Source: Ruminiclostridium papyrosolvens DSM 2782
GTDB lineage: Bacteria; Bacillota; Clostridia; Acetivibrionales; DSM-1351
DNA length: 64,000 nucleotides
Direction: 5' to 3'
NCBI RefSeq assembly: GCF_029318685.1
Contig: NZ_CP119677.1
Coordinates: 1,590,001-1,654,000 of the forward strand
The notes below the pieces were generated by a model. It was not told the origin of the DNA. It did not search any database and saw only the letters and a list, made by a program, of their open reading frames with translations. A program made the position numbers and the translations under genes. Every line of letters starts with the position of its first letter. Positions within the stretch are counted from its first letter, which is position 1. Below, piece after piece: positions 46,532 to 64,000 of this stretch.

Positions 46532-47896
46532 TTGGCTAGAATATTAAGGCCTGACCATCGATTAACTCAAGAGGATAACGGGTGTTTAGTACTTAAAAAT
46601 GTCCATTATGAGAACGTAGTTTACCAGCTTCAACCGATTGTTGCCCTCATCTTTTCATTGTACGACGGATTAAGAAGCGATGAAGAGATTAAAGAAATAG
46701 CAAAATATTTGTTCGGTTCAAAAAAGGAAAGTGAATTCAATCGATTTATGGATAATTTCTTTCTTTCATATCAACGTTTTTTAATCCCTGTTGAAAAAGC
46801 GGAAAAATTTTTTCCCAAACCATGGCCAAGCTATGCTCCTGAGGATTATGCAATAAAGCAAAATTTAATGATAAAAGATTCAAGGCGGTTACCGGCTCCT
46901 CAATATTTAGTTTTATATCTGACAAACAATTGTATTCGAAAGTGCCCATATTGTTATGCCAAAGCAAAACAAAAAGAAACGGTTGAAGAAAATTCGATGG
47001 ATACAGAAATAGTCATGCGGATAATTCAGGAGGCTTTTATGCTTGGGATTGAAGGCATATTGCTGACAGGGGGAGAGCCTCTTCTTCGTCCGGATATATA
47101 CAAAATCATTGACTGTGCGGCTTCATATCATATATCTGTTGGGTTGAGTACAAAGGGTAAAATTAACACAGATATTTTGCAAACCATTGATTTCTCCTTG
47201 CTGAATTTATCTTTGAGCATAGACTCGCATATTCCGGATGTCGCTAACGCATTAGCTGGTTCTCCTACCTTTTACAGGGATATGCTGGATAATATCACAA
47301 ATCTGAAAAGGATAAATGTCCCCTACTCAGTGACAACTGTGATCACCAAGCTCAATCAAGGGCATATTCGGGACACGATACAATATTTTATAGATCAGGG
47401 TGCTCGTAATATTTTGTTAGAACATAATGTATGTTCCGATAAAGAAAACAAACTTTTTGTTTGCGAGGATGAAAAAGTTACGATTGACAATTATATAAAT
47501 GAACTTAAGAATATCCCTGAATTCAGAGGAAAATTGACGCATTCCGCATACGATAAGGGTGTTGTAAATGTGACTAAACTAAAATGCAGCACCGGCCGCT
47601 CAAGATTGAGTATCCGGTATGACGGCAAATATATTTTTTGTGAAAAGCTTGCAAATGCAGATGACATCGAGTTGGGAAATATTTTTGATAAATCTGTGTT
47701 GGATGTGTGGAATTCCGAGGAATTGCTGGCATATATAAACCCTGAGAGAGATTCATATAAGGAGACTGTATGTTTCGATTGTGTTGAATTTGATCACTGT
47801 ACGGGGAAAAATTCATGCATTTCTCAGTCTAAAAATCAGCATGGGACTTACTTTCGTCCTATAAAGGAGGCGGAATATGCTTGCACTCAAAGATGA
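46532..47896 (+). CDS. Radical SAM/SPASM enzyme 1 with PqqD-like N-terminus
   Basis: 454 residues from a TTG start after GAGGAAAGGGTG. Residues 1-85 look like a PqqD-type leader-recognition domain (RILRPDHRLTQEDNGCLVLK, LYDGLRSDEEI). The radical SAM triad Cys134, Cys138 and Cys141 in NNCIRKCPYCYAK is followed by LLTGGEPLLRPD. A SPASM region near 350-430 holds further Cys (KCSTGRSRLSIRYDGKYIFC and CFDCVEFDHC), likely binding auxiliary Fe-S clusters. Enzymes of this type install thioether or carbon-carbon links in ribosomal peptides. First gene of the cluster; its last 20 bases overlap the next. Confidence 0.92.
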   Translation: MARILRPDHRLTQEDNGCLVLKNVHYENVVYQLQPIVALIFSLYDGLRSDEEIKEIAKYLFGSKKESEFNRFMDNFFLSYQRFLIPVEKAEKFFPKPWPSYAPEDYAIKQNLMIKDSRRLPAPQYLVLYLTNNCIRKCPYCYAKAKQKETVEENSMDTEIVMRIIQEAFMLGIEGILLTGGEPLLRPDIYKIIDCAASYHISVGLSTKGKINTDILQTIDFSLLNLSLSIDSHIPDVANALAGSPTFYRDMLDNITNLKRINVPYSVTTVITKLNQGHIRDTIQYFIDQGARNILLEHNVCSDKENKLFVCEDEKVTIDNYINELKNIPEFRGKLTHSAYDKGVVNVTKLKCSTGRSRLSIRYDGKYIFCEKLANADDIELGNIFDKSVLDVWNSEELLAYINPERDSYKETVCFDCVEFDHCTGKNSCISQSKNQHGTYFRPIKEAEYACTQR

Positions 47897-49232
47897 CATT
47901 GCCGTCGGCTATAGCTCCCAAAGAGCTGTTCTGGTCGATATCTCAGATAGATTGCCGACCAAATATCTAAATACAAAATCTTCTCTTGTACTTTTTGCGG
48001 TTTTAAACTTTGATGATGATAAAGGAAGTATAGATTTTCTGCGGGAGTATGCCGTGTTCCCCGACAAAAAAGATATCCAAGATTCAATTGCAAAGCTTGT
48101 CGATGAATTGAAGGATTATTTAGTAAGGATTGATTATCAGGAGCCGCGCAGTAATATTAGTTTACAACGGTTAATCGGTGAGAAAACCAACCAGATTGCA
48201 AACAAATACAGACTGGACTATCCGGTGAAGCTTGTTTGGGTGCCTACATGGAAATGCAATAGAAACTGTCTGTATTGCGGGGTTGCAAAAGTCACCCCTT
48301 CGCAGGTTGAGGAGCAAATTCCGTTGCCTGTTATGCTTGAAAGATTTCAAGAGGCAGTTGACCGGGGTGTAAAACTGGTCAACATTCATGGGGGAGACCC
48401 TCTCTTCTGCTATAACGACGGAATTTATGAGATTATTCACCTTTTGACAGAGAATAACGTAAAAGTCAATCTGTCTACAAAGAATCGTATTTCGGAAGAA
48501 AAAGCTCTACACCTGAAAAATGCAGGGCTCAAAAGAATTCAATTAAGCATTGACACCACAAAAAGCGGTTTACTGGAAAAGTTATATGGCGAACCGAATT
48601 ATCTTGCCGGATTTGAAGAGTCCATAAGAAATTTAAAAAATACCGGGATTGGAATCACTGTCAATGTTGTGATCTCCAATCTCAATTATAAGGATGTCCC
48701 TGAATTGCTGACATATCTCAGTCAACTTGAAGTCGGACAGGTTTCCCTATCTAACTTCAGAAAGGGACAGATCAATTCTCAAGATTATAGTCTTGACAAC
48801 AAACAGCAAATGTGGCTGTTCAAGGAAATAAGAAAAATAAGAAAAAGCTTGAATTTTTTTGATTTTACATATACACCTTTCACCCCACCCGCCAAATCAG
48901 CTGCGAAAAAGCCGGTCTGTGACAGCGGGCGCATATCGTTGATGTTTCTGCCGGATGGAAGAGGGTGCTATTGTGACTTTTTAAGTGAAGATGAAAGATT
49001 CCTATTTGGGAATTTAAAAGAACAGACCATTGAAGAGGTTTGGAATTCGGATGCATTGAAAAGCCTGTTAAACCCTCCGCCAAAAGTGCTGGAGGAAAGC
49101 GGCTGCACTGGATGCGATGGTCTTGAATATTGTATTGAACGCGGGTTTTGTTTTCTGACTTCCGTCAGCAAAGAGATGTTCAGTCCGGATTTTAAAAGTA
49201 TGGAATGTTTTGCCAGAAAGGTAGATGCCTAA
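47877..49232 (+). CDS. Radical SAM/SPASM enzyme 2
   Basis: 451 residues with AAAGGAGG before the ATG, inside the end of the previous gene. The N-terminal 110 residues carry no clear leader-binding motif (YLNTKSSLVLFAVLNFDDDK). The triad Cys127, Cys131 and Cys134 is in WKCNRNCLYCGVAK. The next glycine-rich motif reads NIHGGDPLF rather than GGEP, a mild departure. The SPASM region has CDSGRISLMFLPDGRGCYCD and CTGCDGLEYCIERGFC. It probably modifies the same precursor as its neighbours. The next start codon overlaps its stop (TAATG). Confidence 0.9.
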   Translation: MLALKDDIAVGYSSQRAVLVDISDRLPTKYLNTKSSLVLFAVLNFDDDKGSIDFLREYAVFPDKKDIQDSIAKLVDELKDYLVRIDYQEPRSNISLQRLIGEKTNQIANKYRLDYPVKLVWVPTWKCNRNCLYCGVAKVTPSQVEEQIPLPVMLERFQEAVDRGVKLVNIHGGDPLFCYNDGIYEIIHLLTENNVKVNLSTKNRISEEKALHLKNAGLKRIQLSIDTTKSGLLEKLYGEPNYLAGFEESIRNLKNTGIGITVNVVISNLNYKDVPELLTYLSQLEVGQVSLSNFRKGQINSQDYSLDNKQQMWLFKEIRKIRKSLNFFDFTYTPFTPPAKSAAKKPVCDSGRISLMFLPDGRGCYCDFLSEDERFLFGNLKEQTIEEVWNSDALKSLLNPPPKVLEESGCTGCDGLEYCIERGFCFLTSVSKEMFSPDFKSMECFARKVDA

Positions 49233-50602
49233 TGCGACTAATTCTTAAGCCTGATTTGAGATTGGAAATCATAAACAAAAAACCATATATCGAATCGCAC
49301 GGTTATCATATTCCTGTCAGCAGGAGCGGAGCACTTTTTCTTTGCTTGCTGGACGGTGAACGTACAGCAAAGGAAGCGGTAGGGTTAATGGTCAGTATTG
49401 GTTTATGCAATCCTGAAAATGAAGAGCAAGTTACAAAAACTCTAACTTTGAAGTATGGGCCGTTTATCATGGAGTATGACGGCTTTGAAGATAATCCGAA
49501 CAAAAATTATGATCCGGCGATTTTTCTCCGGACGGAAGATCATGTGTTTGACCCATATAACTTGGAGATTCCAAAAACCATTTCATTTCATGTGACAAGT
49601 ACCTGTAACAAGGAATGTCGTTATTGTTACCTGGATGCTAAGAGAGAAAATCTTGAAAAGGATGCACTGACATTTGAAGAGGTTGTCAGAATGATAGACG
49701 AAGCTGCGGCTATTGGGGTGTACAAGATTTTATATACCGGTGGAGAGCCTTTTTTAAGAAAGGATCTATTGGATATTATTGAATATGCTTCTTCCAAAGG
49801 AATTTTTAACGATCTGATAAGCAAGTTTTATTTGAGCCAGCAGCAGATTGAAAGACTGAGCAGGATCAATAATTTGAGGTTATGTGTAAGTTATGACTGC
49901 CATTTGGAAGAAATTGCTTCGTACTTGACCGGAGAAAAAGATCATGTACAGAAAATGGATGACTTAATTCAAAGATTGGCAGCCGGTAACGTGGATTTTA
50001 CTGTTAATCCGGTGATTACCCAATTGACGGTACAGCATTTTGAAGATTTTCTGATACATCTCCACAATTTGAAGGTTAAAAAAGTTATTATCAACAAATA
50101 TTCAACATCATTGGGTAGAAACGATGATACCCTTTTAGTTTCCGATGAGCAATGGATACGTGTTGTTGACATAGCAAAAAATTGTTCATTTCTTGATGTG
50201 GAAATTCTGATTGGTGAGTCCAGTGAGGTGGTGCAGGAGAAAGCAAATCATCCTCATGACTATCGGATTATCTGCACGAATGGAAGGACCTGCCTTCTGG
50301 TACTGCCGAACGGAAAGACCGTTTTGTGCGATCAGATACCAAACCGGATGGATTTTTGTTTCGGGGATCTTAAAAAGAATTCGATTATGGAAATATGGTC
50401 GTCCCGCGAGCGACAAAATTTGCTGTTTCCTCCACGGGACCTGTATAAAAATACCTCATGTTACGGGTGTAGTGATTTTGACCAATGCCATAAGAAAGTG
50501 GCATGCACCAATACCTCACTGATTGAATTCGGCACTGCATATATCCCAATCCAGGCTGTAAGAAACAGCTGTGTGAAATATGGAAAGGAGATGGTTTTAT
50601 GA
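49232..50602 (+). CDS. Radical SAM/SPASM enzyme 3 with PqqD-like N-terminus
   Basis: 456 residues; the start is set by the TAATG overlap. Residues 1-90 resemble a PqqD-type domain (RLILKPDLRLEIINKKPYIE, GALFLCLLDGERTAKEAVGL). The triad is Cys125, Cys129 and Cys132 in TCNKECRYCYLDAK, with YTGGEPFLRKD following. The SPASM region has CTNGRTCLLVLPNGKTVLCD and CYGCSDFDQCHKKVAC. Similar in order to enzyme 1, so the two may be duplicates that act on different core residues. An ATGA overlap couples it to the carrier protein gene. Confidence 0.9.
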   Translation: MRLILKPDLRLEIINKKPYIESHGYHIPVSRSGALFLCLLDGERTAKEAVGLMVSIGLCNPENEEQVTKTLTLKYGPFIMEYDGFEDNPNKNYDPAIFLRTEDHVFDPYNLEIPKTISFHVTSTCNKECRYCYLDAKRENLEKDALTFEEVVRMIDEAAAIGVYKILYTGGEPFLRKDLLDIIEYASSKGIFNDLISKFYLSQQQIERLSRINNLRLCVSYDCHLEEIASYLTGEKDHVQKMDDLIQRLAAGNVDFTVNPVITQLTVQHFEDFLIHLHNLKVKKVIINKYSTSLGRNDDTLLVSDEQWIRVVDIAKNCSFLDVEILIGESSEVVQEKANHPHDYRIICTNGRTCLLVLPNGKTVLCDQIPNRMDFCFGDLKKNSIMEIWSSRERQNLLFPPRDLYKNTSCYGCSDFDQCHKKVACTNTSLIEFGTAYIPIQAVRNSCVKYGKEMVL

Positions 50603-50859
50603 GTAGGAATGAAATCAATCAGGCATTGCAATCCATATTCAATGAAAGGCCGGAGCTGGCTCAGAAAATATTCGGCAGCGACAAGCTCCCTGAGAATATG
50701 GAAGAGGCGGTCATTCATCTGTCTTCCTTGGATTACGTGGAATTAATCATTGAACTTGAAGAGCGGCTGAATATCGAAAGCATACCGGAAACGGTTATGG
50801 AACAGGGAATACCCATAAAAATTTTGGCAGACAGGATCTATGAACATGTACAACAATAA
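50599..50859 (+). CDS. Stand-alone acyl/peptidyl carrier protein
   Basis: 86 residues, four helices, after AAGGAGATGG. The carrier motif reads HLSSLDYVELIIELEERLNI. The likely phosphopantetheine attachment site is Ser43, with Ser42 where Asp is usual in DSL. The overlap with radical SAM enzyme 3 (ATGA) and with enzyme 4 (20 bases) places it firmly in the operon. A carrier protein inside a radical SAM peptide cluster suggests an amino acid or acyl unit is held here for transfer to the peptide. The adenylation protein at 59561 and the BtrH-like proteins are the expected partners. Confidence 0.85.
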   Translation: MSRNEINQALQSIFNERPELAQKIFGSDKLPENMEEAVIHLSSLDYVELIIELEERLNIESIPETVMEQGIPIKILADRIYEHVQQ

Positions 50860-52261
50860 TTATGTATTCAATTTAGGACAGAGCAAATATGCTCTGGATA
50901 TAAATAATTTGATTTTTTGTGAGTTGGATGAGCAGACGGCGGAGGTTTTCGAGCTTATCTCCAAAACAGGTACGCTTCCCGAGATAAGCAGTGATTCCTC
51001 CGCGGCTGATTTAAAGTATTTTGTAAAGAGAGGCTACTTTTTTAATGAGAAGCCGGAGGAAATGCGGATATCCTACAGTTTTGATACTGCCAATGTATCT
51101 TTTCCCCCAGTTCATCGATGCAATCTCAACTGCCAGTATTGCTTTGCAGGCGGCGGAAACAACTATAGCGGTGACAGACCGGAATTTGACCGGGAGAGAA
51201 TAGACAGGCTCCTCCATTTCGTATATGAGGACTATTTTAAAGACTATAAAAAGTTCAGGTTTGATTTTGTAAGCGGTGGGGAGCCATTGCTGAATTTCGA
51301 GGCGATAAGATATCTTGTTGAACGGGTCAGAGAGATTGACGGCAGGAAGCAATCAAAGTCCTCCTTCTTTTTGGTTACTAACGGTACGCTGATCACGGAT
51401 GAGATTATCGATTACCTTGACCGTGAAAATATTGATTTAGGCGTGAGCATCGACGGAGACAGAGAATTACATAATATGCACCGCCCATATCGTGACGGTA
51501 CGGGTTCCTACGAGGATGTGACCGGAGCAATACGGTGCATACAAAATTCAGCATGCTCGGCCAGATTGAAGGATATATGGGCATTAAGCGTTATCACAAA
51601 AAATACAGAAAGCCTCTGTAAAGTTTTGGAGCATCACAGCTCGTTAAATATTCAAAGAGTCCAGATGAAAATACTCAGGGTGAATTCCGAGCATAAGTTA
51701 GGTTTCTCCCAGGCAGACACTGAAGTATTACAAAATAAATATCTGGAGCTGATAGAATATTTTAAATACCACATTGACAGGGCGGATTTAAGCAAATTAC
51801 TGATGATTCTCAATGACAATGACTCGTTTGGAAAGATGATCAGACGTTTATTACTTCGTGAAAAAGCTTTTTTCCGCTGTGGTGCCGGTAAAAACAAAAT
51901 CAGCTTTACGGCATCCGGAGAATTTTATCCCTGTGACAGCTTTTGCGGCATGCAGCCTTTTTTGCTGGGAAAGATAGGAGAAAGTACTGAGGGAAATGCT
52001 AAAGCTGCTTTTTATAAGGGGTCTGTATGTGAGAGGGATACATGCAGTAAATGCTGGGCTAAATTTATATGCGGCGGTGACTGTTATCATAATTCATATT
52101 TAAAAAACCGCGATATGATGATACCGGATTCTTTCATGTGCGAAATGAATAAATTTTTTATAAAACAGTCGGTGGATTTAATATGTTACCTATATAAAAC
52201 TAATCCAAGGCTTATAGCAAGATTACAAAAAAATTTATCGAAAAGAGAAAAAATATTATGA
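50840..52261 (+). CDS. Radical SAM/SPASM enzyme 4, six-Cys maturase type
   Basis: 473 residues. The N-terminal 85 residues may recognise the leader (FNLGQSKYALDINNLIFCEL). The triad is Cys94, Cys98 and Cys101 in HRCNLNCQYCFAGG, with FVSGGEPLLNFEA next. The C-terminal SPASM is of the twitch/six-Cys form: CGAGKNKISFTASGEFYPCD, then CERDTCSKCWAKFICGGDCYHNSY and a last Cys. This is the layout of SCIFF and sulfatase maturases, which form thioethers from Cys to residues downstream. The core peptide's four Cys make that reaction plausible. ATGA overlap with the next gene. Confidence 0.92.
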   Translation: MNMYNNNYVFNLGQSKYALDINNLIFCELDEQTAEVFELISKTGTLPEISSDSSAADLKYFVKRGYFFNEKPEEMRISYSFDTANVSFPPVHRCNLNCQYCFAGGGNNYSGDRPEFDRERIDRLLHFVYEDYFKDYKKFRFDFVSGGEPLLNFEAIRYLVERVREIDGRKQSKSSFFLVTNGTLITDEIIDYLDRENIDLGVSIDGDRELHNMHRPYRDGTGSYEDVTGAIRCIQNSACSARLKDIWALSVITKNTESLCKVLEHHSSLNIQRVQMKILRVNSEHKLGFSQADTEVLQNKYLELIEYFKYHIDRADLSKLLMILNDNDSFGKMIRRLLLREKAFFRCGAGKNKISFTASGEFYPCDSFCGMQPFLLGKIGESTEGNAKAAFYKGSVCERDTCSKCWAKFICGGDCYHNSYLKNRDMMIPDSFMCEMNKFFIKQSVDLICYLYKTNPRLIARLQKNLSKREKIL

Positions 52262-53385
52262 GTGGTAATCCGGGCGAAATACTAAAAAAACAATATGACA
52301 TTGATTCTATGGTGAGAATTGTAGATTTTAAAAATTTTAAAATCTATTTTCATCATAAGAATGGCAGATGGTATAAGCTGCCCAATATGGTTCACCAGTT
52401 TATTACAAATAAACTGCAGGTTGCGTCCTTTGAAAACGACAGAGAAATTGTGCATTATTTCAGCTTGATTATCCGAAAGTTGTTGGAACAAGATGTAATT
52501 ACGGAATCCATCCGGGATAAGAAGTTGGGTCGTTTGTTTTTCCTTACTAAGGACGAAGAAGATATTAAAGGACTGTATGAAAATATTATAATGAAACACA
52601 TTGTTTTTGATCCGGAATCGCTCCTTTTATACGATACAGCCAAGGAAAGAAAATATATCTCCAGCGATTCTAAAATATATGTTGTAGTCAAAGAAAACGA
52701 TATCCCTGCTCCATTAATACAACTGGCCCTAGAGAAGGCAGACAGAATATTCATACGATCGCTTGAAGTACTGAAAAAGTTTGCCGAACAAAAAACACAA
52801 ATAAGGAAGCCACTTATGCTGGAAATGTCTGATGGCATACATGATGCCTGCGAGGAATTAATCGACATCATAAATACTTTACACCCGGATATCCGGATTG
52901 CAATACCCTATTCCAGCCCTGAAATATGCTCCGATCTGCTGGATTATTTGCAGGCTAAAAAGCCGGAAATACCTTTTTATTACACCTTCTGCAATTTTAC
53001 CGGCTCCAAAAGCCAGTCAATGGAAAGTCTGGGTGGAATAGGTTTGAATTCTGGAATAGAGGACATTGTATTTCAAAATTCAAGGCTTTCCTGCGGAGGC
53101 GGAAAATATAAGTTTTATATTGATAAAAACGGAGATATATATCCCTGCATCAGGATACAGGACAAATCGAAAGTATTGGGGAATATCACCACAAACAGTA
53201 TTGAAGGGTTTATTCTCAACAGAAAACAGGAATTTGTCAAAAATGTTGAAACAATAGGAAAATGCGCTAGCTGCAATGTACGGTATTTCTGTGGGGGCGG
53301 ATGTATGGACGAGGTTCAGAATGATGAATTTATCTTTTGTGACTTAGTTCATAAAAGGCTCAACAGTATAATTAACGGGGGATAG
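52258..53385 (+). CDS. SPASM-domain protein without a radical SAM triad
   Basis: 375 residues. The C-terminal 110 residues are a clear SPASM domain (SCGGGKYKFYIDKNGDIYPC, then CASCNVRYFCGGGCMDE and a final Cys). The central part has the length of a radical SAM barrel but no CxxxCxxC: at the expected place it reads LGRLFFLTKDEEDIKGLYEN. It therefore cannot cleave SAM by the usual route. It may be a degenerate paralogue that binds auxiliary clusters, carries electrons or chaperones the peptide. Tightly coupled to enzyme 4 (ATGA) and six bases before the peptidase gene. Confidence 0.85.
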   Translation: MSGNPGEILKKQYDIDSMVRIVDFKNFKIYFHHKNGRWYKLPNMVHQFITNKLQVASFENDREIVHYFSLIIRKLLEQDVITESIRDKKLGRLFFLTKDEEDIKGLYENIIMKHIVFDPESLLLYDTAKERKYISSDSKIYVVVKENDIPAPLIQLALEKADRIFIRSLEVLKKFAEQKTQIRKPLMLEMSDGIHDACEELIDIINTLHPDIRIAIPYSSPEICSDLLDYLQAKKPEIPFYYTFCNFTGSKSQSMESLGGIGLNSGIEDIVFQNSRLSCGGGKYKFYIDKNGDIYPCIRIQDKSKVLGNITTNSIEGFILNRKQEFVKNVETIGKCASCNVRYFCGGGCMDEVQNDEFIFCDLVHKRLNSIINGG

Positions 53386-53391
53386 CGAGAT

Positions 53392-54531
53392 ATGAATAAA
53401 TATATACTCTGTGACAATGGAATAGAATTCATATTTGAAAGAGTAGAGGGAGCGGAATTTAACTCCATTGAGGTATGGTTGAAATTCGGTTCCGCAAGTG
53501 ATCCGGAAGAAAACAGCGGATTGGCTCATTTGATAGAGCACTTGCTTATTACGGAGGATATGAAAGATGTAGACTTATATGCATATTACAATATACACGG
53601 AATGACTTCGAAAGAACGGATACGGCTAAATACTTCCTGTAAGAAAGAAAAGACGGATGTGGTTCTGGAAAAGATTTTAAAAAATATCATGAACTTCAGC
53701 CCGTCAGAATACTATTTCGAATACCAACGACAGAAGGTTCTCTATGAAATACTTCATTTACGGAAATCGCCTATATTACTATACCTGGAAGAAGCCGAAA
53801 AACACCTGTTTGCGGGTACTGGGTATGACCGGACGGTGACCGGACTTGAAAACGGAATCAAAGATGTTTCTGTAGCTTTTGTGAGAGATTTTCTAAACCG
53901 AATGCTCCAATCTAATGGGATGATTATTTCTATTGCAGGTGAAGGGGATTTTAACACGATAAAGTCTTTAATTGAGAGCCATTGTTCAACCGTTATGGGG
54001 AATCATAATATGCTCGACAGAATAAACTTTAAATCCGGCACGGTTTTATCCGGTTTACCCCATCAAGGCGTATTGCATATGTATGATACCTATAACACAA
54101 ATTTTGAACCGCTGGTTAATTTCGCGATGAATAATATACTGGAGGAATTTGTGAAGTATGGTTTATCGGAATATGTAACGTCTGTCAAGACGATTGATCA
54201 TAACTTTTATAATTTGTTTTCAGTGCTGATACCGAAAATGAATAACTATAATGACGCTACGTACGAACTGGAAAAGATAATTTCGGGCGATATTGATGAA
54301 GCTTTGTTTCAACGGGTCAAGGCATATGTCATTGAGCAGTTTCTAAATAGGCTAAAGGATCCGCCGGAGGTTTCTCATTATAATATCAGGCAGCATTTTT
54401 GCAATAGAAGGATGGGGGTCGAGGATTTGCTGCAGGTACTAATAGACATTGATGTCAGTGACTTCAGAAAACATCTGGAACATGCTGCAGATAAACTTAA
54501 CCAATATAAGGTCATATCCGTAGCCATTTGA
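53392..54531 (+). CDS. M16-family zinc peptidase, likely leader peptidase
   Basis: 379 residues, a single M16 unit. The inverted zinc motif HLIEH is at 46-50, with Glu49 as catalytic base. The third zinc ligand is probably Glu119 in RQKVLYEILH. The N-terminus (VEVWLKFGSASDPEENSGLA-like segment) follows the family start. M16 peptidases cut leaders in several RiPP systems (AlbE/AlbF in subtilosin, PqqF in PQQ). Usually two units form the active clamp. Only one is seen here, so it may be a homodimer or use a genomic partner. Start after GGGGGATAGCGAG. Confidence 0.87.
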   Translation: MNKYILCDNGIEFIFERVEGAEFNSIEVWLKFGSASDPEENSGLAHLIEHLLITEDMKDVDLYAYYNIHGMTSKERIRLNTSCKKEKTDVVLEKILKNIMNFSPSEYYFEYQRQKVLYEILHLRKSPILLYLEEAEKHLFAGTGYDRTVTGLENGIKDVSVAFVRDFLNRMLQSNGMIISIAGEGDFNTIKSLIESHCSTVMGNHNMLDRINFKSGTVLSGLPHQGVLHMYDTYNTNFEPLVNFAMNNILEEFVKYGLSEYVTSVKTIDHNFYNLFSVLIPKMNNYNDATYELEKIISGDIDEALFQRVKAYVIEQFLNRLKDPPEVSHYNIRQHFCNRRMGVEDLLQVLIDIDVSDFRKHLEHAADKLNQYKVISVAI

Positions 54532-55607: not shown

Positions 55608-57355
55608 TTAACTTCTTTTTAGGAAACACAAAAAAATATTTTTTGATAATAGCGTTGATCAATGTTTTGTCGGGGCTAACGGTTCCTTTGAATATATTCC
55701 TGATCCAGAGAATCATTGATACTGCCGTCGTTTCGGGCAAGTCGGGTTTCGGGAATGACTTTACCTATATTCTGTTTTATCTGGGACTACAAATAGTAAC
55801 GGTATTATTAGCTCAGTCAGACAAGCTGCTAAGAACAATCTTTGGCAATACGCTTGAAATCAACTGGGGCAAAGATATACTAGAAAAAAGTGCAAAGGTT
55901 CAATACAAGTACTTTGAGCAAACAAAAAGCTATGAAACCATTCATCGCATATTGAGCGGTTTTAAAGAGAATATAACAGGGATAACCGACATAACTTCTT
56001 CCGTTACAAAAATTACTATTTCCATGTTCGGCGTATTTTACTTTATTATGCAGACCGAATGGTGGATTTTCATCGCATTACTTATTACGACATTTCCTGT
56101 ATGGCTTTTTTCCATTATTTCAACGTTACGCGAAAGAGATACTTATACGGAAATTTATCCCTATTTTTTAAGAGCGAACTACCTTTCTAAAATGATTAAT
56201 TCCAGGGAAAGTATTAAGGAGGTTCGTTTATATAATTTTTTCAAGCATATTAACAAATTATGGTCGGAAGTGTTGTCCAAGTTCCAAAGAGGGCAGCTGC
56301 TGTCCAATCTGAAGCCAAGATACATAGCCGGAGCATTTATATTTTTGCAGTATTTTGTTGTAACAGTGATTATTTTTATGTTGGTCTACCCACTCAGAAA
56401 GGGATTGATGACAATAGGCGTATTTGTTGCTCTGGCACAGGCTATGTGGAACTATGTCGGAAACTTTCAATACGAGATCATCAATATCATACAGAAAATT
56501 AACCATCTGAGAGTTTTTGCAAAAGATTATAAAACATTTATGGCATTGGATGAAAACTCATCGGCATTATGTGGCGGAGATGCAAATAATATCAATTTCA
56601 CAAGCATTGAATTCAAGGATGTATGGTTCCGTTATGACGACAGCAGCGAGTATGTATTAAAAGGAGTAAACTTTAGCATATCGAATAATGAATTAATTGC
56701 ATTGGTCGGTTTGAACGGATCGGGCAAGACAACCATCATTAAGCTTCTTCTGGGGTTGCTGCACCCTACAAAGGGAGACGTGCTTGTAGACGGTATGCCT
56801 GTATCTGATATTCAAGTGACAAAGCGGAAAAAAATTTTTTCTGTTATCTTTCAGGATTTTGCGAAATACAATATTTCATTACGTGAAAATATAGCCCTTT
56901 CAAATTTGGATTTTATTAATAATGAAAAGGAAATGATAAGAATTTTGAATTCTTTAACCAATCAGGCTGAGCTTGTGCAAAATCTCAAGGATGGCTTTGA
57001 TACCAGTTTGGGCAAAGATATTGACGGCGGAACGGATTTATCGGGCGGCCAGTGGCAGACGGTTGCCATAGCAAGAGCTTTGTTTTCCGATTCGTCATGT
57101 ATCGTGATGGATGAACCCACTGCGGCAATAGACCCTATTGCCGAGGTTGAAGTATATAACCAATTAATCTCGGCAGCTAAAAATAAAGCCGCTGTTTTTG
57201 TTACCCACCGCCTCGGCTCAACACGCCTGGCACACACCATATATACCCTCGATAAAGGCATTATCGTCGAAAAAGGCTCACATGAGGAACTGATGGAAAG
57301 GAACGGCATATATGCGGAAATGTTCAACACGCAAAAAAGATGGTATGAAAAATAA
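55604..57355 (+). CDS. ABC exporter 1, fused membrane and ATPase domains
   Basis: 583 residues from the ATG overlapping the previous stop (ATGA); a start seven codons earlier is possible. Six membrane helices in residues 1-310, then a nucleotide-binding domain: Walker A GLNGSGKTTIIK, Q-loop FQDFAKY, signature DLSGGQWQTVAIAR, Walker B CIVMDEPTAAIDP, and His switch FVTHRLGS. No C39 peptidase domain precedes it, so it does not cut leaders itself. It probably exports the mature peptide, alone or as a heterodimer with the next gene. Confidence 0.93.
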   Translation: MINFFLGNTKKYFLIIALINVLSGLTVPLNIFLIQRIIDTAVVSGKSGFGNDFTYILFYLGLQIVTVLLAQSDKLLRTIFGNTLEINWGKDILEKSAKVQYKYFEQTKSYETIHRILSGFKENITGITDITSSVTKITISMFGVFYFIMQTEWWIFIALLITTFPVWLFSIISTLRERDTYTEIYPYFLRANYLSKMINSRESIKEVRLYNFFKHINKLWSEVLSKFQRGQLLSNLKPRYIAGAFIFLQYFVVTVIIFMLVYPLRKGLMTIGVFVALAQAMWNYVGNFQYEIINIIQKINHLRVFAKDYKTFMALDENSSALCGGDANNINFTSIEFKDVWFRYDDSSEYVLKGVNFSISNNELIALVGLNGSGKTTIIKLLLGLLHPTKGDVLVDGMPVSDIQVTKRKKIFSVIFQDFAKYNISLRENIALSNLDFINNEKEMIRILNSLTNQAELVQNLKDGFDTSLGKDIDGGTDLSGGQWQTVAIARALFSDSSCIVMDEPTAAIDPIAEVEVYNQLISAAKNKAAVFVTHRLGSTRLAHTIYTLDKGIIVEKGSHEELMERNGIYAEMFNTQKRWYEK

Positions 57356-59183
57356 GAATAATGATACAGATCCGTTTTTGGCCTCCAATCATAAATCTGG
57401 CTTAATCCGGACATTTATACGGCTTCTGTATATGATGGTAAAAACAAGCAAGGTGCGGTTTGTTTTACAATTATTCGTCTCGGTTATCGGCGGATGTTTA
57501 CCAGTTCTTGTTGCTTTATTATGGAAAAATTTGCTGGAAAAGATTACGAACCTGCCCACCGCAGCGAATAATTTATCTCTGCTGTCCGATTTTTTTGTTT
57601 TTGCTTTGGTAGGAGGTTTGTCGGTTTCATTTTATTATTTTTCCGAGATTGTGGACACTTTTTTCCGCAATGTGATTTCACTGAAATTGCAGGATGGGAT
57701 TCATCAGAAATCTCAAAAGGTTCCGGTTGCATTTTATGAAGTACCACAATTAAATGATATAATCAACAGGGCACAAAATGCATTCTGCTATGGACCTGCA
57801 GTCGGTGCAGCGTTGAATATAACGCATATTCTGAGTGTTATAGCCTCTTTGATAGCATCTGTGGGGATTCTTTCGAGTTTTCACTATTCCCTTGCGATAT
57901 TGCTGGTGGGCGTATCCTTACCCTATATTATTAAATTATTAATAAACCGAATTAATTTTGATTTTACTGTCCGGTCCAGTCCTAAAAGACGGGAAGCGGA
58001 AATATACAGCAGGTATTTCACAAAATATGAATATATAAAGGAAACCCAAATCCTGGATGCCAAAGCCTTCTTTATTGATAAATGGCTGAAAGTGATGAAT
58101 TTCGTTCGCCGGGATGAAATAAAAACGAATCTTAAAACCGTCGGAATTGAAACGGTTATTGAGATATTTGAAAGTGCAGGGTATGTTTTCTCAATATTTT
58201 TAACTGTATATCTGATTAACAAAAAAATTATCGGCATTGGGGAATTTGGAGCCATTGTAATACTGCTTGGACAAATGAAAGATAACATTACGAGATTTTT
58301 CGGGGATATAGCTGAAATGCACGAACTATTATGCGTGGTAGAAAAGGGATTTGAATATCTGGATCTTAAGGAGGAGGACCGGCCTATCCATATTTCTCCT
58401 GAAATTAAAGAAGATATTGTTTGTGAAAATGTTTCCTATGCATATCCCCTTATTCGAGAAAAAGTGATTGATGGGGTGGATATTCGTATCAAGCAGGGAG
58501 AAGTGATTGCTCTTGTAGGGTCAAACGGCGCTGGTAAATCTACTCTGGCGAAAATACTGCTAGGACTTCTCACGCCGGATGAAGGCAGGATAAAGTATGA
58601 TGGAACGGATATTAAAAATCTGGCTTATCAAAGTGTTTATAAAAATGCTTCTGCAGTTTTTCAAGACTTTGTTCATTATTACTTAAGCATACAGGAGAAC
58701 ATCGGATTAGGTGATATCTCCAAGTTGGATAATACTGATTTGATTTTAGATGCGGCAAAAAAATCCGGTGCAATTTCATTTGTGAATTCCCTCCCGGAAG
58801 GCATCAATACGGTTTTAGGGAAGGAATACGGAGGCATGGAACTATCAGGCGGACAATGGCAGCAATTGGCGCTAGCCAGAGGGTACTTCAGAGATAGCTC
58901 GTTTGTTGTTCTTGATGAACCTTCTTCTGCCCTGGACCCGGTAAAGGAAGCGGATATGTATGAAAACTTCCGGAGATTATGTAACGGTAAAACGGGAATT
59001 ATTATCACCCACCGGCTTGGAGCTGCAAGTTTGGCGGATCGGATATTTTTAATAGAAAAAGGGCGGATTGTTGAGGAAGGAAACCACAGTGAACTATGCA
59101 ATAAGAAAGGGAAGTACTGGCGCATGTTTGAGGCGCAGGCTTCCATGTATCGGGCAAATAATTGTGCTAATGATATGCAGTAA
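57345..59183 (+). CDS. ABC exporter 2, fused membrane and ATPase domains
   Basis: 612 residues; the start lies inside the last codons of exporter 1. It has the same layout: six helices, then Walker A GSNGAGKSTLAK, Q-loop FQDFVHY, signature ELSGGQWQQLALAR, Walker B FVVLDEPSSALDP and His switch IITHRLGA. Catalytic residues of both exporters look intact, so either could work as a homodimer, but tandem overlapping genes favour a heterodimer. The next gene downstream encodes the precursor peptide. Confidence 0.92.
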   Translation: MKNKNNDTDPFLASNHKSGLIRTFIRLLYMMVKTSKVRFVLQLFVSVIGGCLPVLVALLWKNLLEKITNLPTAANNLSLLSDFFVFALVGGLSVSFYYFSEIVDTFFRNVISLKLQDGIHQKSQKVPVAFYEVPQLNDIINRAQNAFCYGPAVGAALNITHILSVIASLIASVGILSSFHYSLAILLVGVSLPYIIKLLINRINFDFTVRSSPKRREAEIYSRYFTKYEYIKETQILDAKAFFIDKWLKVMNFVRRDEIKTNLKTVGIETVIEIFESAGYVFSIFLTVYLINKKIIGIGEFGAIVILLGQMKDNITRFFGDIAEMHELLCVVEKGFEYLDLKEEDRPIHISPEIKEDIVCENVSYAYPLIREKVIDGVDIRIKQGEVIALVGSNGAGKSTLAKILLGLLTPDEGRIKYDGTDIKNLAYQSVYKNASAVFQDFVHYYLSIQENIGLGDISKLDNTDLILDAAKKSGAISFVNSLPEGINTVLGKEYGGMELSGGQWQQLALARGYFRDSSFVVLDEPSSALDPVKEADMYENFRRLCNGKTGIIITHRLGAASLADRIFLIEKGRIVEEGNHSELCNKKGKYWRMFEAQASMYRANNCANDMQ

Positions 59184-59282: not shown

Positions 59283-59405
59283 ATGAAATTTGATGTTAAC
59301 GAATTAAAGAATTTGGTTGAAGAAATGGATCTGAATTCAGCTTTTGATAATATTGATGCCGAGAATTGTTCCGTATGCTGTTATGTAGGCGGGGGCGGAT
59401 GCTAA
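59283..59405 (+). CDS. Candidate RiPP precursor peptide, 40 residues
   Basis: ATG after GAGGTG at six bases. Residues 1-26 form an acidic, amphipathic leader (KFDVNELKNLVEEMDL, then NSAFDNIDA). Residues 27-40 are the core ENCSVCCYVGGGGC, with Cys29, Cys32, Cys33 and Cys40. The Leu-rich helix in the leader is what PqqD-type domains bind, and a Cys-rich, Gly-rich end is usual for thioether peptides made by radical SAM enzymes. The gene lies amid the maturation and export genes and is closed by its own terminator. It is too short for most automatic gene callers. Confidence 0.88.
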   Translation: MKFDVNELKNLVEEMDLNSAFDNIDAENCSVCCYVGGGGC

Positions 59406-59436: not shown

Positions 59437-59458
59437 CCATATGGCATTAGCCATACGG
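59437..59458 (+). repeat. Hairpin after the precursor gene
   Basis: CCATATGGC and GCCATACGG flank ATTA, giving a nine-base stem with one G-T pair. It sits between the precursor stop and the terminator and could protect the small mRNA's 3' end. Confidence 0.5.
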
Positions 59459-59483
59459 TGGTTTCTGGTACATAAACAGGTTA

Positions 59484-59528
59484 ATGTGTAGTTTAGAATA
59501 CCCTGCTTCTTAACTACACATATTTTTT
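59484..59528 (+). terminator. Terminator between precursor and adenylation gene
   Basis: ATGTGTAGTT pairs with AACTACACAT around an 18-base loop and is followed by ATTTTTT. Read-through would be needed for the A-PCP gene to share the transcript, so it may set a high precursor-to-enzyme ratio. Confidence 0.82.
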
Positions 59529-59560
59529 CAGGGTATAAACAGGAGGTGCATTTACATAGG

Positions 59561-61372
59561 ATGGATAGGAATATACCGGTAACCGAAAATCCAATCACAC
59601 CCCATATGATACACAGGCTTTTTGAAAGTCAGGCACTAAGTACTCCAAATAATACTGCCCTTATATTAGGAGAAAAAAGCTTATCCTATAAGGAGCTTAA
59701 CGAAAGGGCAAACCAGCTTGCATGGAAATTAAGAGAAAAAGGTGTTCAGGCAGATAGGATTGTCGGTATCATGGTGAATCGCTCATTCGAAATGATCATC
59801 GGTATTCTCGGAGTACTTAAAGCCGGCGGGGCATACTTGCCGATTGATCCTGCATATCCTGCAGATAGAATTCAGTTTATGCTGGAAGACAGTAGCTCAC
59901 ATATATTACTGTCTCAGAAAAAATTCGTTGAAGGAATCCATTATGAAGGTGATTTTATAAATCTGGATGAGAAGGCTATATATGCAGGTGATGATTCAAA
60001 TCCGGCAATAATAAATAGTTCAAAGGATTTGGCCTATGTGATTTATACATCAGGCTCAACCGGTACACCGAAAGGTGTCATGATAGAGCATGGAGCTGTG
60101 TGCAATTTTATCCGGGGAATATCAGAGAAAATCGATTTTTCTGAAGGAAAAACAATCTTAGCGCTTACGACAATATCCTTCGATATTTTCGTCATGGAAA
60201 CACTTCTTCCCTTATCCAGAGGATTATCGGTTGTCATTGCGGATGAATCCCAACAAAAAAATCCGAAGCTCCTAAATGAGTTGATAATCCAAAATCATGT
60301 CGACATGCTTCAATCAACACCTTCCAGAATGCAGCTGCTGCTACGATACGATGAAGAGCTGCAAGGATTAAAATATTTAAAGGAAATAATGGTTGGCGGC
60401 GAGCCTTTGCCAACTTCTTTGTTAGAGCGTCTAAAGTGCTTGTCAAATGCAAAGATATACAATTTGTATGGTCCCACAGAGACAACCGTTTGGTCCACAT
60501 TGAAGGATGTATCGCTTTGCAGCAGCATAAACATTGGAAAGCCGATCTGCAATACTCAGATTTATATTGTTGATGAAAACAGCGGGTTACAGCCTGTCAC
60601 TGAGGAAGGCGAACTATGTATTGCAGGGGACGGATTGGCCCGAGGATATCTTAACAGGCCGGAATTGACGGAAGAAAAGTTTGTTGCAAACCCATTCAAC
60701 CCAGGAAGTAAAATGTACAGAACCGGAGACCTGGCACAGTGGCTTCCTGACGGTAATATTGAGTTTTTGGGAAGGATCGACAATCAGATAAAACTGAACG
60801 GCTACAGGATTGAGCTAGAAGAAATAGAATATCAACTGTTAAAGCACCACTCTATTAAAGAAGCGGTGGTAATTGCAAAGGAAGGTAAGGAAGGAAATAA
60901 ATTTTTGTGCGCATACTTTATGTCGGATATAGAATTGCAGGATACGGTCTTAAAGGAATACTTATCAAAATCGTTACCGCAATATATGATACCGCCATAC
61001 TTTATGAGGCTTGAAAAGTTTCCCCTAACGCCTAATGGAAAGATGGACAGGAAATGGTTGCCTGAGATACAAAATAATGAAACTTCCGATGTTAATGAGG
61101 AGCAGCAGATAACCGAGGATTCTGAAGAAAATGAAATTGAAGCCAGGGTGAAAACTATTATCAGGGCATCTATTGACATACAGATTCAGGAGGATAGTAT
61201 AAATTTGAAGAACCGGTTCAGTGACTTTGGAATCGATTCACTCCTCTATATCAAGATAGTTGTTTTAATAGAAAATGAATTTGGCCTGAAATTCGACGAC
61301 GATGCTTTGAACATGGAAACATTCCCGGATATTCAAAGATTTATTACATATATAGTATCAAAATCAAAATAA
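59561..61372 (+). CDS. NRPS-like adenylation and carrier didomain, likely glycine
   Basis: 603 residues from the ATG; AGGAGG lies at 59541-59546, rather far, and overlaps an in-frame GTG. Adenylation core motifs are complete: YVIYTSGSTGTPKGVM (A3), NLYGPTETT (A5), YRTGDLAQW (A7), GRIDNQIKLNGYRIE (A8), NGKMDRK (A10). A carrier domain ends it, with phosphopantetheine Ser560 in FGIDSLLYIK. Aligning by eye to GrsA gives the ten-residue pocket D-I-M-Q-M-G-L-V-W-K, close to the glycine code D-I-L-Q-L-G-L-I-W-K. There is no condensation, reductase or thioesterase domain. It likely loads glycine onto itself, perhaps also onto the stand-alone carrier at 50599. Confidence 0.88.
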   Translation: MDRNIPVTENPITPHMIHRLFESQALSTPNNTALILGEKSLSYKELNERANQLAWKLREKGVQADRIVGIMVNRSFEMIIGILGVLKAGGAYLPIDPAYPADRIQFMLEDSSSHILLSQKKFVEGIHYEGDFINLDEKAIYAGDDSNPAIINSSKDLAYVIYTSGSTGTPKGVMIEHGAVCNFIRGISEKIDFSEGKTILALTTISFDIFVMETLLPLSRGLSVVIADESQQKNPKLLNELIIQNHVDMLQSTPSRMQLLLRYDEELQGLKYLKEIMVGGEPLPTSLLERLKCLSNAKIYNLYGPTETTVWSTLKDVSLCSSINIGKPICNTQIYIVDENSGLQPVTEEGELCIAGDGLARGYLNRPELTEEKFVANPFNPGSKMYRTGDLAQWLPDGNIEFLGRIDNQIKLNGYRIELEEIEYQLLKHHSIKEAVVIAKEGKEGNKFLCAYFMSDIELQDTVLKEYLSKSLPQYMIPPYFMRLEKFPLTPNGKMDRKWLPEIQNNETSDVNEEQQITEDSEENEIEARVKTIIRASIDIQIQEDSINLKNRFSDFGIDSLLYIKIVVLIENEFGLKFDDDALNMETFPDIQRFITYIVSKSK

Positions 61373-61413
61373 ATAAGCCTCCCTAAATACAGGATTTTGA
61401 GAGGAGTGAGTTT

Positions 61414-62451
61414 ATGAAATCTTCTAAAGTGCTGCCAACAAGGGAACCCCCTGTAAAGGTTTACCATTTTAGGGCGTTTCCTCTGTCGGTAACTTCAAAT
61501 TATAGTGAAACATTGCCATGGTTTTATAGTAATTTTATACAATTAAAATGTACCTCCGAATTTATACGGGAAAAAGAAATGGACTTTGACTTTATTGCGG
61601 GTGATGTTTTCGGCGGCATACCATGGATTGATTATATCAAAGATATTGACAAAACTATGCTGAATGAGAATATGAATGATGTATGTCAGTTTGTTATTAA
61701 GAATATTGATAATGGATACTACATTTATACATTTGTTGATGAATTCTTTATTCCTGACAGATCCGCTTATAAAAAATATCATCGTATGCATGATATAATG
61801 GTTTACGGATATGATGATTCTGAAAAGGTGTTTAATGTTGCCGGCTATAACTCGAAGATGAAGTATGCTGAAACCAAATCCGACTTTGAATGCTTCTATA
61901 ATGCATTTTCAAGCTCTGAACCTAAGCGAAATGATAAAATTGTCCTTTTTAGGAAAATAGATGATGTCAATTATAGCTTTGATATAGAAAGAGTATTTGA
62001 AAAATTGGAAGACTATTTATATTCAAGGGACTGTTCGGATAAGCTGGAAATTTACGATTTTGACGGTAGGACTAAACGTATAAAATATTTACACCAGCTT
62101 CTTAAAACAGGAAATTATGTATTTGGCATAAATGTATATGATCAATTGATACTATTTTGTGAAGCTATGAAGAACAAGTATGTTCGTCCCGATTTACGAC
62201 CGTTTCATTGCCTGTGGGAACACAAAAGTTGTATGTTAGAGCGATTAAGATATTTAGCAGGCCAGAATTACATTAAAAATATTGATGATTTATGTAATAA
62301 TTATAAACTTATCGAGTTAGAAGCGTTAACAATCAGAAACATGATGGTTAGGATGATGTTAATCCGTGACTTCCATTCAATTGAAGATGTTAAGTATCGT
62401 CTTGACAAGCTATCTAAGGATGAATACGCCTTATTAATTAATTTATTATAA
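61414..62451 (+). CDS. Second BtrH-like/C39-fold protein
   Basis: 345 residues after GAGAGGAGTGAG. The middle has the strand pattern of the BtrH/C39-like fold (NGYYIYTFVDEFFIPDRSAY, then YHRMHDIMVYGYDDSEKVFN and VAGYN), with His126 and Asp127 or Asp134 as polar candidates. Unlike the protein at 54558 it has no obvious N-terminal Cys nucleophile, so it may be a non-catalytic partner. The C-terminal 170 residues are helical. Proteins of this type occur as stand-alone genes beside NRPS modules. Forty-one bases separate it from the A-PCP gene, so it shares that transcript. Confidence 0.7.
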   Translation: MKSSKVLPTREPPVKVYHFRAFPLSVTSNYSETLPWFYSNFIQLKCTSEFIREKEMDFDFIAGDVFGGIPWIDYIKDIDKTMLNENMNDVCQFVIKNIDNGYYIYTFVDEFFIPDRSAYKKYHRMHDIMVYGYDDSEKVFNVAGYNSKMKYAETKSDFECFYNAFSSSEPKRNDKIVLFRKIDDVNYSFDIERVFEKLEDYLYSRDCSDKLEIYDFDGRTKRIKYLHQLLKTGNYVFGINVYDQLILFCEAMKNKYVRPDLRPFHCLWEHKSCMLERLRYLAGQNYIKNIDDLCNNYKLIELEALTIRNMMVRMMLIRDFHSIEDVKYRLDKLSKDEYALLINLL

Positions 62452-62794
62452 TTGTAATAAATTAATTTCAATAATTAGTGGGTAGTAAAAGGAAGATTTT
62501 TATGTTTAAAATTTTGTGTATGAAGCCTTTTAGACTCAATGATGGCTAAGTATTTCCAAAGTATTAACTCTCAAAAATTTATTCAATGATATTTCTATGC
62601 TTTTCCCTGTATTTTGAGGGTCTAGCCCGTCCGGCGATGAGGATTTGCCTTCACAAAAAATGTCAATATAAATGACACTAAAATTTTAAAATATAGTAGC
62701 GTAGTTCTTGAAAACAGTGTATAATAATTTTAAATAAGAGATAAATTTGTATACTAATGCATACAAAAAAATTACATTTTTAAGGACACGTTTT
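62452..62794. other. Intergenic region before the glycyl-radical genes
   Basis: About 340 bases. A 15-codon open frame at 62502 follows AAAGGAAG (MFKILCMKPF, then RLNDG); it is too short to call. TATAAT occurs near 62721 and could start a separate transcript for the activase and glycyl radical enzyme, but no matching -35 box is clear. TGTCA and TGACA at 62659-62676 form a weak hairpin. Nothing else is supported. Confidence 0.4.
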
Positions 62795-63706
62795 ATGAGA
62801 ATCAAATATTTTGATATTGGGTGGTTATCAAGAACCGATGGGCCGGGTAACAGAACAGTACTGTTTTTGCAGGAGTGTAATCTGCGGTGCCCCTGGTGCC
62901 ATTCTCCTCATTCAAGAGAAGTTGAATCTCCAATCCTTTTTAACGAAGTAAGGTGTATTAATTGTCATAACTGTATGGAGATTTGCATTCAAAATGTCCA
63001 TTCTTTCAGGAACGGAATCCACATGGTTCAAAGAAAAAACTGTATAAAGTGCGGCAGGTGTATTGAAGCCTGTCCGACTTCAAGGTTGGATACCAATTCA
63101 GGAGCCTTGTTTTTGCCTACCCGCAGTATGGAGGTGTCGGACATGTTTTCGTTGTTGCGCCCGCAGCTTGAGGTTTTAAAAACCTCCGGCGGACTTACGG
63201 TAAGCGGTGGAGAAGCTCTTCTTCAAAAGGAGGCTGTTATGGAAATACTGAAACTTTGTAAATCGAGGAACATTCATACAGCCGTAGAAACCTCATTAAC
63301 ACTACCGGAAGAGTATTATGACTCCGTCAGTGAGTATGTGGACTGTTGGCTCATAGGATTGAGAGGTACATATCTGAATAATATATCCGATAAAATCAAA
63401 AGTACAACAATGAATAATGTACGTTACTTTTCACGCTTGGATTCGGAAGTAGTGGTAAGGTTTCCTGTGATAAAAAATTATACAATGTCGGAAATACAGT
63501 TATCCCGGATTGCAGAAACCATGTGTATCGGGGCTTTTAACAATATCGAGATATTGCCGTGCAACAAAAGTATGGAGCATTATTACAAATTATCAGGAAT
63601 AACCTCTGAAATTAATGCAGAGGATGCGTTTCCAGATGCATATGAAATAAAATGTATTGTTTCATTCTTCAAGGCAAAAGGCTTCAATGTAAAGGTAATA
63701 TCCTAA
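62795..63706 (+). CDS. Glycyl radical enzyme activase, radical SAM
   Basis: 303 residues from the ATG after AAGGACACG; an upstream frame extension has no site. The activase triad Cys28, Cys32 and Cys35 in ECNLRCPWCHSPHS is followed by two ferredoxin-like 4Fe-4S sites (Cys54-57-60-64 in CINCHNCMEIC and Cys83-86-89-93 in CIKCGRCIEAC), as in activases of the non-pyruvate-formate-lyase glycyl radical enzymes. TVSGGEALLQKEA is the SAM-binding motif. It places a glycyl radical on the enzyme encoded 27 bases downstream. The HSPHS segment after the triad departs from the common QNPE pattern. Confidence 0.9.
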   Translation: MRIKYFDIGWLSRTDGPGNRTVLFLQECNLRCPWCHSPHSREVESPILFNEVRCINCHNCMEICIQNVHSFRNGIHMVQRKNCIKCGRCIEACPTSRLDTNSGALFLPTRSMEVSDMFSLLRPQLEVLKTSGGLTVSGGEALLQKEAVMEILKLCKSRNIHTAVETSLTLPEEYYDSVSEYVDCWLIGLRGTYLNNISDKIKSTTMNNVRYFSRLDSEVVVRFPVIKNYTMSEIQLSRIAETMCIGAFNNIEILPCNKSMEHYYKLSGITSEINAEDAFPDAYEIKCIVSFFKAKGFNVKVIS

Positions 63707-63733
63707 ACAAAAAATAAGATAAGGAGAAGATTT

Positions 63734-64000
63734 ATGAGTACTTGTAAATTTGAAATGACAGAAAGAGTCAGAAATTTGCTTAACAGCTTGTACGAACAGG
63801 GCAAAAAAGACAGGAGCAGTGAATGGTTTAAGAAGGAGGAGTTTGAAAATATAGCGGTTGCTTATCCTGATGAATCGGTTATCATCAGAAAAGCCTATGC
63901 AATCAATGAAATGCTCACAAAACTAACTGACAAAAAGATTTCAGAAAGGACACTTACATATAAAATAAATGAGGGTGAGCTTATAGTTGGTGTATTGCCC
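63734..64000 (+). CDS. Glycyl radical enzyme, N-terminal part (runs off the end)
   Basis: ATG after AAGGAGAAG. Eighty-nine codons are present before the window ends. ERVRNLLNSLYEQGKKDRSS, then WFKKEEFENIAVAYPDESVI and KINEGELIVGVLP, match the N-terminal region of pyruvate-formate-lyase-type glycyl radical enzymes. The preceding activase confirms the class. The substrate-defining active-site loops (Cys and Glu/His) and the C-terminal Gly loop lie outside the window, so the reaction cannot be named. Confidence 0.85.
   Translation, partial: MSTCKFEMTERVRNLLNSLYEQGKKDRSSEWFKKEEFENIAVAYPDESVIIRKAYAINEMLTKLTDKKISERTLTYKINEGELIVGVLP

Follow-up and report, generated by a model that had tools for sequence, protein, structure and literature searches.

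The stretch of DNA analysed here (the window; 64,000 nucleotides) covers positions 1,590,001 to 1,654,000 of the one-contig, 5.03-Mb genome of Ruminiclostridium papyrosolvens DSM 2782. Thirteen consecutive genes on its plus strand, at positions 46532 to 62451, form an operon which, judged by the predicted products, is rather likely to combine a pathway for a ribosomally synthesized and post-translationally modified peptide (RiPP) with a small thiotemplated pathway resembling nonribosomal peptide synthetases (NRPS) (Table 1). The first ten genes overlap or lie at most 26 bases from their neighbours, in line with a first-pass annotation that had described a nearly uninterrupted plus-strand set with overlaps; the precursor gene is flanked by gaps of 99 and 140 bases. 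Gene starts were assigned mechanically as the first possible start of each open reading frame (ORF). All genes named in that annotation are present in the window. Its count of four radical S-adenosylmethionine (SAM) enzymes was correct, but it had not listed as such a fifth SPASM protein, which is devoid of the CX3CX2C motif that rSAM1, rSAM2 and rSAM3 each carry along with a SPASM domain.

Table 1. Predicted genes of the operon and of the glycyl-radical pair downstream of it (positions in the window).
Feature	Position	Strand	Characteristics
rSAM1	46532..47896	+	Radical SAM/SPASM protein, PqqE/MoaA-like, TTG start; PF04055 and PF13186; CIRKCPYC
rSAM2	47877..49232	+	Radical SAM/SPASM protein; PF04055 and PF13186; CNRNCLYC
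rSAM3	49205..50602	+	Radical SAM/SPASM protein; PF04055 and PF13186; CNKECRYC
Free peptidyl carrier protein (PCP)	50599..50859	+	Overlaps rSAM3 stop and rSAM4 start
rSAM4	50840..52261	+	Relative of nif11/PapB/SCIFF maturases; marks the recurring module
SPASM-only protein	52258..53385	+	PF13186 and TIGR04085; no CX3CX2C
M16 peptidase	53392..54531	+	PF00675 (5.4e-9); HLIEH at residue 46
BtrH1	54558..55607	+	Papain-like; triad C27, H126, D142
ATP-binding cassette (ABC) exporter 1	55583..57355	+	PF00005 and PF00664
ABC exporter 2	57312..59183	+	PF00005
Precursor peptide	59283..59405	+	40 amino acids, Cys-rich, C-terminal end CSVCCYVGGGGC; ribosome site GAGGTGA
A-PCP	59546..61372	+	Adenylation (A) domain fused to PCP; PF00501 and PF00550; code DIMQMGLVWK
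BtrH2	61414..62451	+	Fold as BtrH1; no conserved Cys nucleophile
Glycyl-radical activase	62747..63706		Downstream of operon
Glycyl-radical enzyme	from 63734		866 amino acids as seen in L024 (235-2835)

In the 13 operon proteins, Pfam detected neither a condensation domain, which sets the operon apart from a modular NRPS, nor a YcaO or LanB-type enzyme, which sets it apart from thiopeptide pathways of the nosiheptide type. Three matches to phosphopantetheinyl transferases (PF01648) are present in the genome. Counts of promoter-like sites (64 versus 64.1 in shuffled sequences) and terminator-like sites (19 versus 12.6) were not informative.

The best solved relative of rSAM4 is 5wgg (6.6e-64), which we take to be CteB; by analogy with this relative, Cys thioether formation is the probable reaction of rSAM4. 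Genomes of 84,980 species were scanned with three rSAM4 sequences, taking stretches that matched one of two peptide patterns, and 41 loci were obtained. The seven nearest to rSAM4 (L047 to L053) encode a PCP in all cases, an A domain in six, and BtrH1 and BtrH2 in five each. Each of these four was absent from the other 34 loci of the same scan (L054 to L087), a contrast that is somewhat favoured because the counting profiles were derived partly from positive loci and because five of the 34 control stretches are shorter than 10 kb. The profiles also detected other carriers elsewhere. At the next-best maturases of the class (19 loci), PCP, A domain and BtrH were likewise missing throughout; the ten of these maturases that were scanned all pass the SCIFF cut-off.

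Phylogenetic analysis with IQ-TREE (53 rows) placed the eight PCP-linked rSAM4 proteins in one clade with a support of 100/93, to which L053 (96/56) and then L103 (100/94) are the neighbours. This set of eight loci (window, L034 and L047 to L052; L053 excluded) is referred to below as the clade loci. They belong to Oscillospiraceae, Lachnospiraceae, Cellulosilyticaceae, Erysipelotrichaceae and the order of the window, and encode a free PCP in eight cases and an A domain and BtrH1 in seven cases each. Searches at other depths gave the following results: (i) the BtrH1 query led, among 58 genomes of the order, to L034 of another family, in which rSAM4 (36%) occurs with an A-PCP, two ABC exporters and a BtrH protein; (ii) at E ≤ 1e-60, the rSAM4 query matched nothing in 391 genomes of the class beyond the window and G201 (the same locus as L051); (iii) the rSAM4 profile gave 6e-221 and 9e-203 in this class, the next value being 1.4e-74; (iv) in a sample of 348 from the phylum, only the window itself passed 1e-85 with rSAM4. 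Taken as comparisons of predicted genes, these data and the ORF listing below show a recurring association of rSAM4 with a carrier, an A domain, BtrH1 and a small ORF ending in Cys. The claim of the first-pass annotation that the RiPP parts and the carrier, adenylation and BtrH parts serve one pathway gains support from the homologous loci of other families, which keep carrier, A domain and BtrH1. Whether these genes always accompany each other had been put up for checking: most clade loci keep them, but the stretch of L051 holds only the carrier.

In Cellulosilyticum ruminicola (L050, 9995-11436) the rSAM4 relative is split over two frames, due to either an assembly error or a broken gene. 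A plasmid home of the module was considered and dismissed; at E ≤ 1e-30, rSAM4 had matches in two plasmid records, with 26-27% identity.

The recurrence bears on the possibility that two separate pathways share one operon, one for a thioether RiPP and an unrelated small one for an aminoacyl or butirosin-like side chain. BtrH-like proteins are frequent elsewhere in the genus, be it in carrier clusters without radical SAM genes, as lone BtrH2-like genes or in NRPS genes, and one such carrier cluster has an ATP-grasp protein and a pyridoxal phosphate (PLP)-dependent decarboxylase. We nevertheless regard two separate pathways as unlikely. The combination recurs in other families with a changed gene order, the free PCP gene directly precedes rSAM4 (≤40 bases) in five of the eight clade loci (window, L047, L048, L049 and L052), and among the 391 genomes of the class the BtrH1 profile retrieved only the window's own protein below E 1e-100 (next 3.2e-30).

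The remaining maturases are less conserved. For rSAM1-3 and the SPASM-only protein, no clear orthologue was found in the other module loci (best matches 24-26%, over part of the protein), which instead encode PqqD, TldD or radical SAM proteins of the B12 type or other types. These four proteins probably tailor each product.

The free PCP matched an acyl carrier model with an E value of 6.7e-5, which is under the cut-off of that model, and had no match in Pfam. Its likely attachment residue, Ser43, is invariant in the nine aligned rows. The free carrier might act as a structural helper of the maturase without any acyl group, as the carrier-related protein adjacent to CcpM may do: a family named 'peptide maturation system acyl carrier-related protein' exists in NCBIfam (TIGR04069), its example in L152, near CcpM and a CLI_3235 precursor, has an Ala aligned with the attachment Ser, and the PCP of L051 has no A or BtrH gene nearby. 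Such a role is very improbable, however, as the free PCPs keep the Ser in 9/9 rows, the window PCP scores 15.7 against a TIGR04069 cut-off of 70, and an A domain accompanies it in seven of the eight clade loci.

Candidate precursors were sought in ten loci (L034, L039, L047 to L053, and the window from 45500 on) by listing, irrespective of Cys, the small intergenic ORFs that run in the direction of the operon and have a strong ribosome site. Sixteen ORFs of 22-69 amino acids were obtained, seven of which end in Cys; seven longer ORFs (carriers and one PqqD-like), one of them ending in Cys, were excluded. A Cys end is found in 70 (3.0%) of all 2334 ORFs of 22-100 amino acids in these loci. The binomial tail for 7/16 is 2e-7 at this rate and 0.003 at 12/89, the rate for strong-site ORFs with the seven included. 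A candidate with a Cys end is present in seven of the eight clade loci (window VGGGGC, L034 CWQGC, L047 PPPTGC, L048 SGTLGC, L050 SNGC, L051 ISSC, L052 SSCC), and the rest of the core is variable. L050 contains three further Cys-ended candidates in tandem, which were left outside the count; the L053 candidate (30 amino acids) has no Cys end. The window precursor matched no family in Pfam or NCBIfam. Its leader resembles that of the L047 candidate (6 of 2000 shuffles scored as high) and, less clearly, that of L049 (61 of 2000), whereas no likeness was seen to L048 (556), L051 (991) or L034 (902).

A conserved Cys end in an otherwise variable core would also suit a scaffold peptide, whose C-terminal Cys would be the site of carrier-assisted assembly of a small molecule that is later released by cleavage, as in 3-thiaglutamate biosynthesis. 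The end Cys is the only Cys in the L047 and L048 candidates, peptidases of the M16 or TldD/PmbA type are encoded in the window, L051 and L052, and pearlins provide a precedent, as far as the accessible parts of the sources go (PMC9303977, PMC9016710). This alternative is still quite unlikely: no LanB-like ligase was detected in the operon proteins scanned, the multi-Cys cores resemble substrates of the ranthipeptide type, and there are dedicated exporters, that of L047 with a C39 leader-peptidase domain.

The ten pocket letters of A domains were taken from an alignment of 12 domains, four of which (two in L025, and those of L028 and L026) stem from other clusters and were excluded from the code count. 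Glycine-like codes were found in the window (DIMQMGLVWK), L050 (DILQMGMIWK), L052 (DILQLGLIWK) and L053 (DLVQLGLIYK); DILQLGLIWK is the glycine code. We infer from its predicted pocket that the window A domain activates glycine, which fits the guess of the first-pass annotation. The codes of L034 (VAWSITALHK), L047 and L048 (both VAWCVTAFHK) and L049 (VAWSFTAFQK) are without Asp235. An ordinary alpha-amino acid is unlikely for a domain that has no Asp at the first code position. In L034, L047 and L048 a gene for a PanD-family aspartate decarboxylase (PF02261) adjoins the A gene, and L049 has a PF00282 decarboxylase 8.4 kb from it in the same locus. A decarboxylase thus occurs in 4/4 loci without Asp235 versus 0/4 with a glycine-like code, as judged by homology to those enzymes (p = 0.029). 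A search of 105 loci revealed no PanD outside L034 (which L046 overlaps), L047 and L048. The code without Asp235 and the decarboxylase in the same locus therefore point to beta-alanine as the predicted substrate in L034, L047, L048 and L049.

Pfam reported a PCP at the end of the A protein in the window, L034 and L050. In L052 the second carrier is encoded by a separate gene; L053 has a single carrier. Linear gramicidin synthase A was the top PDB chain for A-PCP. Its second A domain is specific for glycine; by eye the pocket residues differ, and it was not used as support. A-PCP proteins 50.5-52% identical to that of the window are encoded along with BtrH-like genes in the same genome (L025, 7564-9453) and in G021 (L029, 2815-4704).

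BtrH1 has an invariant Cys-His-Asp triad, and its model shows the fold of CtaG and CcbD, which are carrier-dependent acyl transferases. PDB titles list the CtaG variants C11A, H128A and D144N, a His-Asp spacing of 16 as between H126 and D142 of BtrH1. Fold and triad are those of CtaG/CcbD/BtrH-type transferases, and BtrH1 is probably a carrier-dependent acyltransferase or amide synthase. In CcbD a Cys triad mediates ping-pong transfer from carrier to amine, according to the part of the source available (PMC12945683). BtrH2 scored 23.4 bits with Pfam BtrH_N, under the cut-off of 29.7, yet its model (pLDDT 64; residues 11-70 under 50) has the same fold as BtrH1, in keeping with the two C39/BtrH-fold proteins annotated earlier. 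Its invariant columns include D109 and H126 and contain no Cys, so that the conserved nucleophile of the transferases is missing. BtrH2 was rejected as a module marker because relatives occur alone and in NRPS genes. In the genus, BtrH2-like domains are frequent, alone or in long open frames (1956 and 2704 amino acids), for instance at G018:C1:3381987-3384275 (L129); a BtrH2 search of viral contigs gave no relative.

The best reading of the operon, which we hold to be somewhat more probable than its rivals taken together, is that a ribosomal peptide is joined to an amino acid delivered by a carrier protein. rSAM4 and rSAM1-3 would modify the Cys-rich core, and the A domain would activate glycine (beta-alanine in the PanD loci) and load its own PCP. 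BtrH1 would then take the aminoacyl group from a carrier onto its own Cys and pass it to an amine, either directly or via the free PCP and BtrH2. No lysine was seen by eye past the likely leader in the window, L047, L048, L051 and L052 cores; lysine is present in those of L050. Because five cores are without lysine, a side-chain amine is less likely as the common acceptor than the N-terminal amine or a Cys thiol, and the N-terminal amine of the core is the most likely final acceptor. The M16 peptidase, a likely leader protease, would remove the leader, and the two ABC proteins would export the product.

Several points, besides the favoured control contrast, weigh against the joining of peptide and carrier-borne amino acid. 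BtrH2 is present in only five of the eight clade loci, and in the 20.8-kb stretch of L051, rSAM4, PCP and a candidate precursor are accompanied by neither an A domain nor BtrH. Of the nearest rows outside the clade, L053 keeps part of the set only (A, PCP and BtrH2), and in L103 (stretch L168) carrier, A and BtrH are all absent. The L049 candidate precursor has no Cys end. The PCP on the A protein was unreported by Pfam in L047 and L049, and was read by eye there and in L048. The acceptor and the substrates of rSAM1-3 are predictions.

In an improbable variant, the ribosomal chain would itself be continued into thiotemplated assembly. BtrH1, acting like phytochelatin synthase as a transpeptidase at the recurrent C-terminal Gly-Cys, would transfer the peptide to the amino group of PCP-bound glycine or beta-alanine. 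Alternatively, rSAM4 would link the amino acid on the carrier to the last Cys of the peptide, so that the carrier would close a ring.

The glycyl-radical pair (62747 onwards), which the first-pass annotation had noted as following the set, is probably a mere neighbour. It is separated from BtrH2 by 295 bases, the gene for the enzyme was not found in the other module loci, and in only one of 11 genomes of the genus, that of the window, did the enzyme pass E 1e-100. Among the matches listed, the enzyme is under every NCBIfam cut-off and the activase passes only that of the subfamily model TIGR02494. Upstream of the operon lie a LytR/BtsR-like regulator fragment (148 amino acids) followed by a protein of 142 amino acids without family match (43782-44653), and a CPBP-like gene (44688-45500) that is present in two of 11 genomes of the genus.

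Clusters of a BtrH-like protein and carriers recur across the genus (L026, L030, L035, L036, L038 and L041). L030 also encodes an ATP-grasp protein, a PLP decarboxylase (Pfam) and a thioesterase, resembling butirosin side-chain genes. The idea that the operon is a close copy of these clusters was discarded; all six are without a CX3CX2C ORF or a radical SAM label. In another hybrid of the genus (L039, 6975-17072), a PCP, a radical SAM protein and a BtrH protein are encoded together with an apparent B12-binding protein and a fusion of a subtilisin-like protease to a TIGR04066-like domain. One genome of the genus encodes a CLI_3235 precursor, CcpM, a TIGR04066 protein and an acyl carrier-related protein (TIGR04069) together (L152, 4626-7876).

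If the proposed pathway is correct, a papain-like enzyme joins a ribosomal peptide to a carrier-borne aminoacyl group, linking two branches of natural product chemistry, and the loci with PanD beside the A domain would yield ribosomal peptides containing beta-alanine, which is absent from the genetic code. The occurrence of the combination in several bacterial families suggests a little-explored route to peptide natural products, and the rSAM4 clade with its neighbouring PCP offers a handle to search for more clusters in anaerobes.

Among the matches listed (best 25 per rSAM), none of rSAM1-4, the PCP and the precursor passed an equivalog cut-off of NCBIfam. No class with this combination was named in the titles found in the literature, with poor coverage of subscription papers and bioRxiv preprints. 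Like the window, the CLI_3235/CcpM systems (TIGR04065, 04066, 04068 and 04069; L152) are clostridial and possess a small Cys-rich precursor, a SPASM maturase and a carrier-related protein. They differ in that rSAM4 scores 135 bits against their maturase cut-off of 500, the PCP likewise stays below its cut-off, the precursor matches no family (TIGR04065 included), and the window adds an A domain, BtrH1 and further radical SAM genes; the L152 carrier lacks the attachment Ser. Ranthipeptides and SCIFF peptides (CteB, PapB) share the Cys-rich core and include the closest solved relative of rSAM4. With 179 and 182 bits, however, rSAM4 remains under the cut-offs of TIGR03974 (425) and NF047865 (340) and forms its own clade, and the 19 next-best maturase loci, represented by SCIFF maturases wherever scanned, are without the thiotemplated genes. 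In nosiheptide biosynthesis (NosI/NosJ/NosK), a carrier protein hands an acyl group to a ribosomal peptide; here the product is a thiopeptide, the core enzymes are different, the donor is an indolic acid and the transferase is unrelated.

Closthioamide biosynthesis (CtaG, CtaE/CtaH) resembles the window in having a CtaG-fold transferase, two carriers and beta-alanine possibly derived from a decarboxylase, but the accessible part of its description mentions neither a ribosomal precursor nor a radical SAM enzyme (PMC6772006). Lincosamide CcbD/LmbD and butirosin BtrH share with BtrH1 the papain-like, carrier-dependent acyl transfer, as far as covered by the excerpts available (PMC12945683, PMC10318531); their acceptor is an amino sugar or aminoglycoside, unlike the ribosomal peptide proposed here. 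Carrier-related proteins have some precedent in SPASM peptide systems, given TIGR04069 and the gene near CcpM in L152. New, as far as our searches go, are the joint presence of a SPASM maturase, carriers, an A domain predicted to use glycine or beta-alanine and a CtaG/CcbD-type transferase, and the recurrence of this set.

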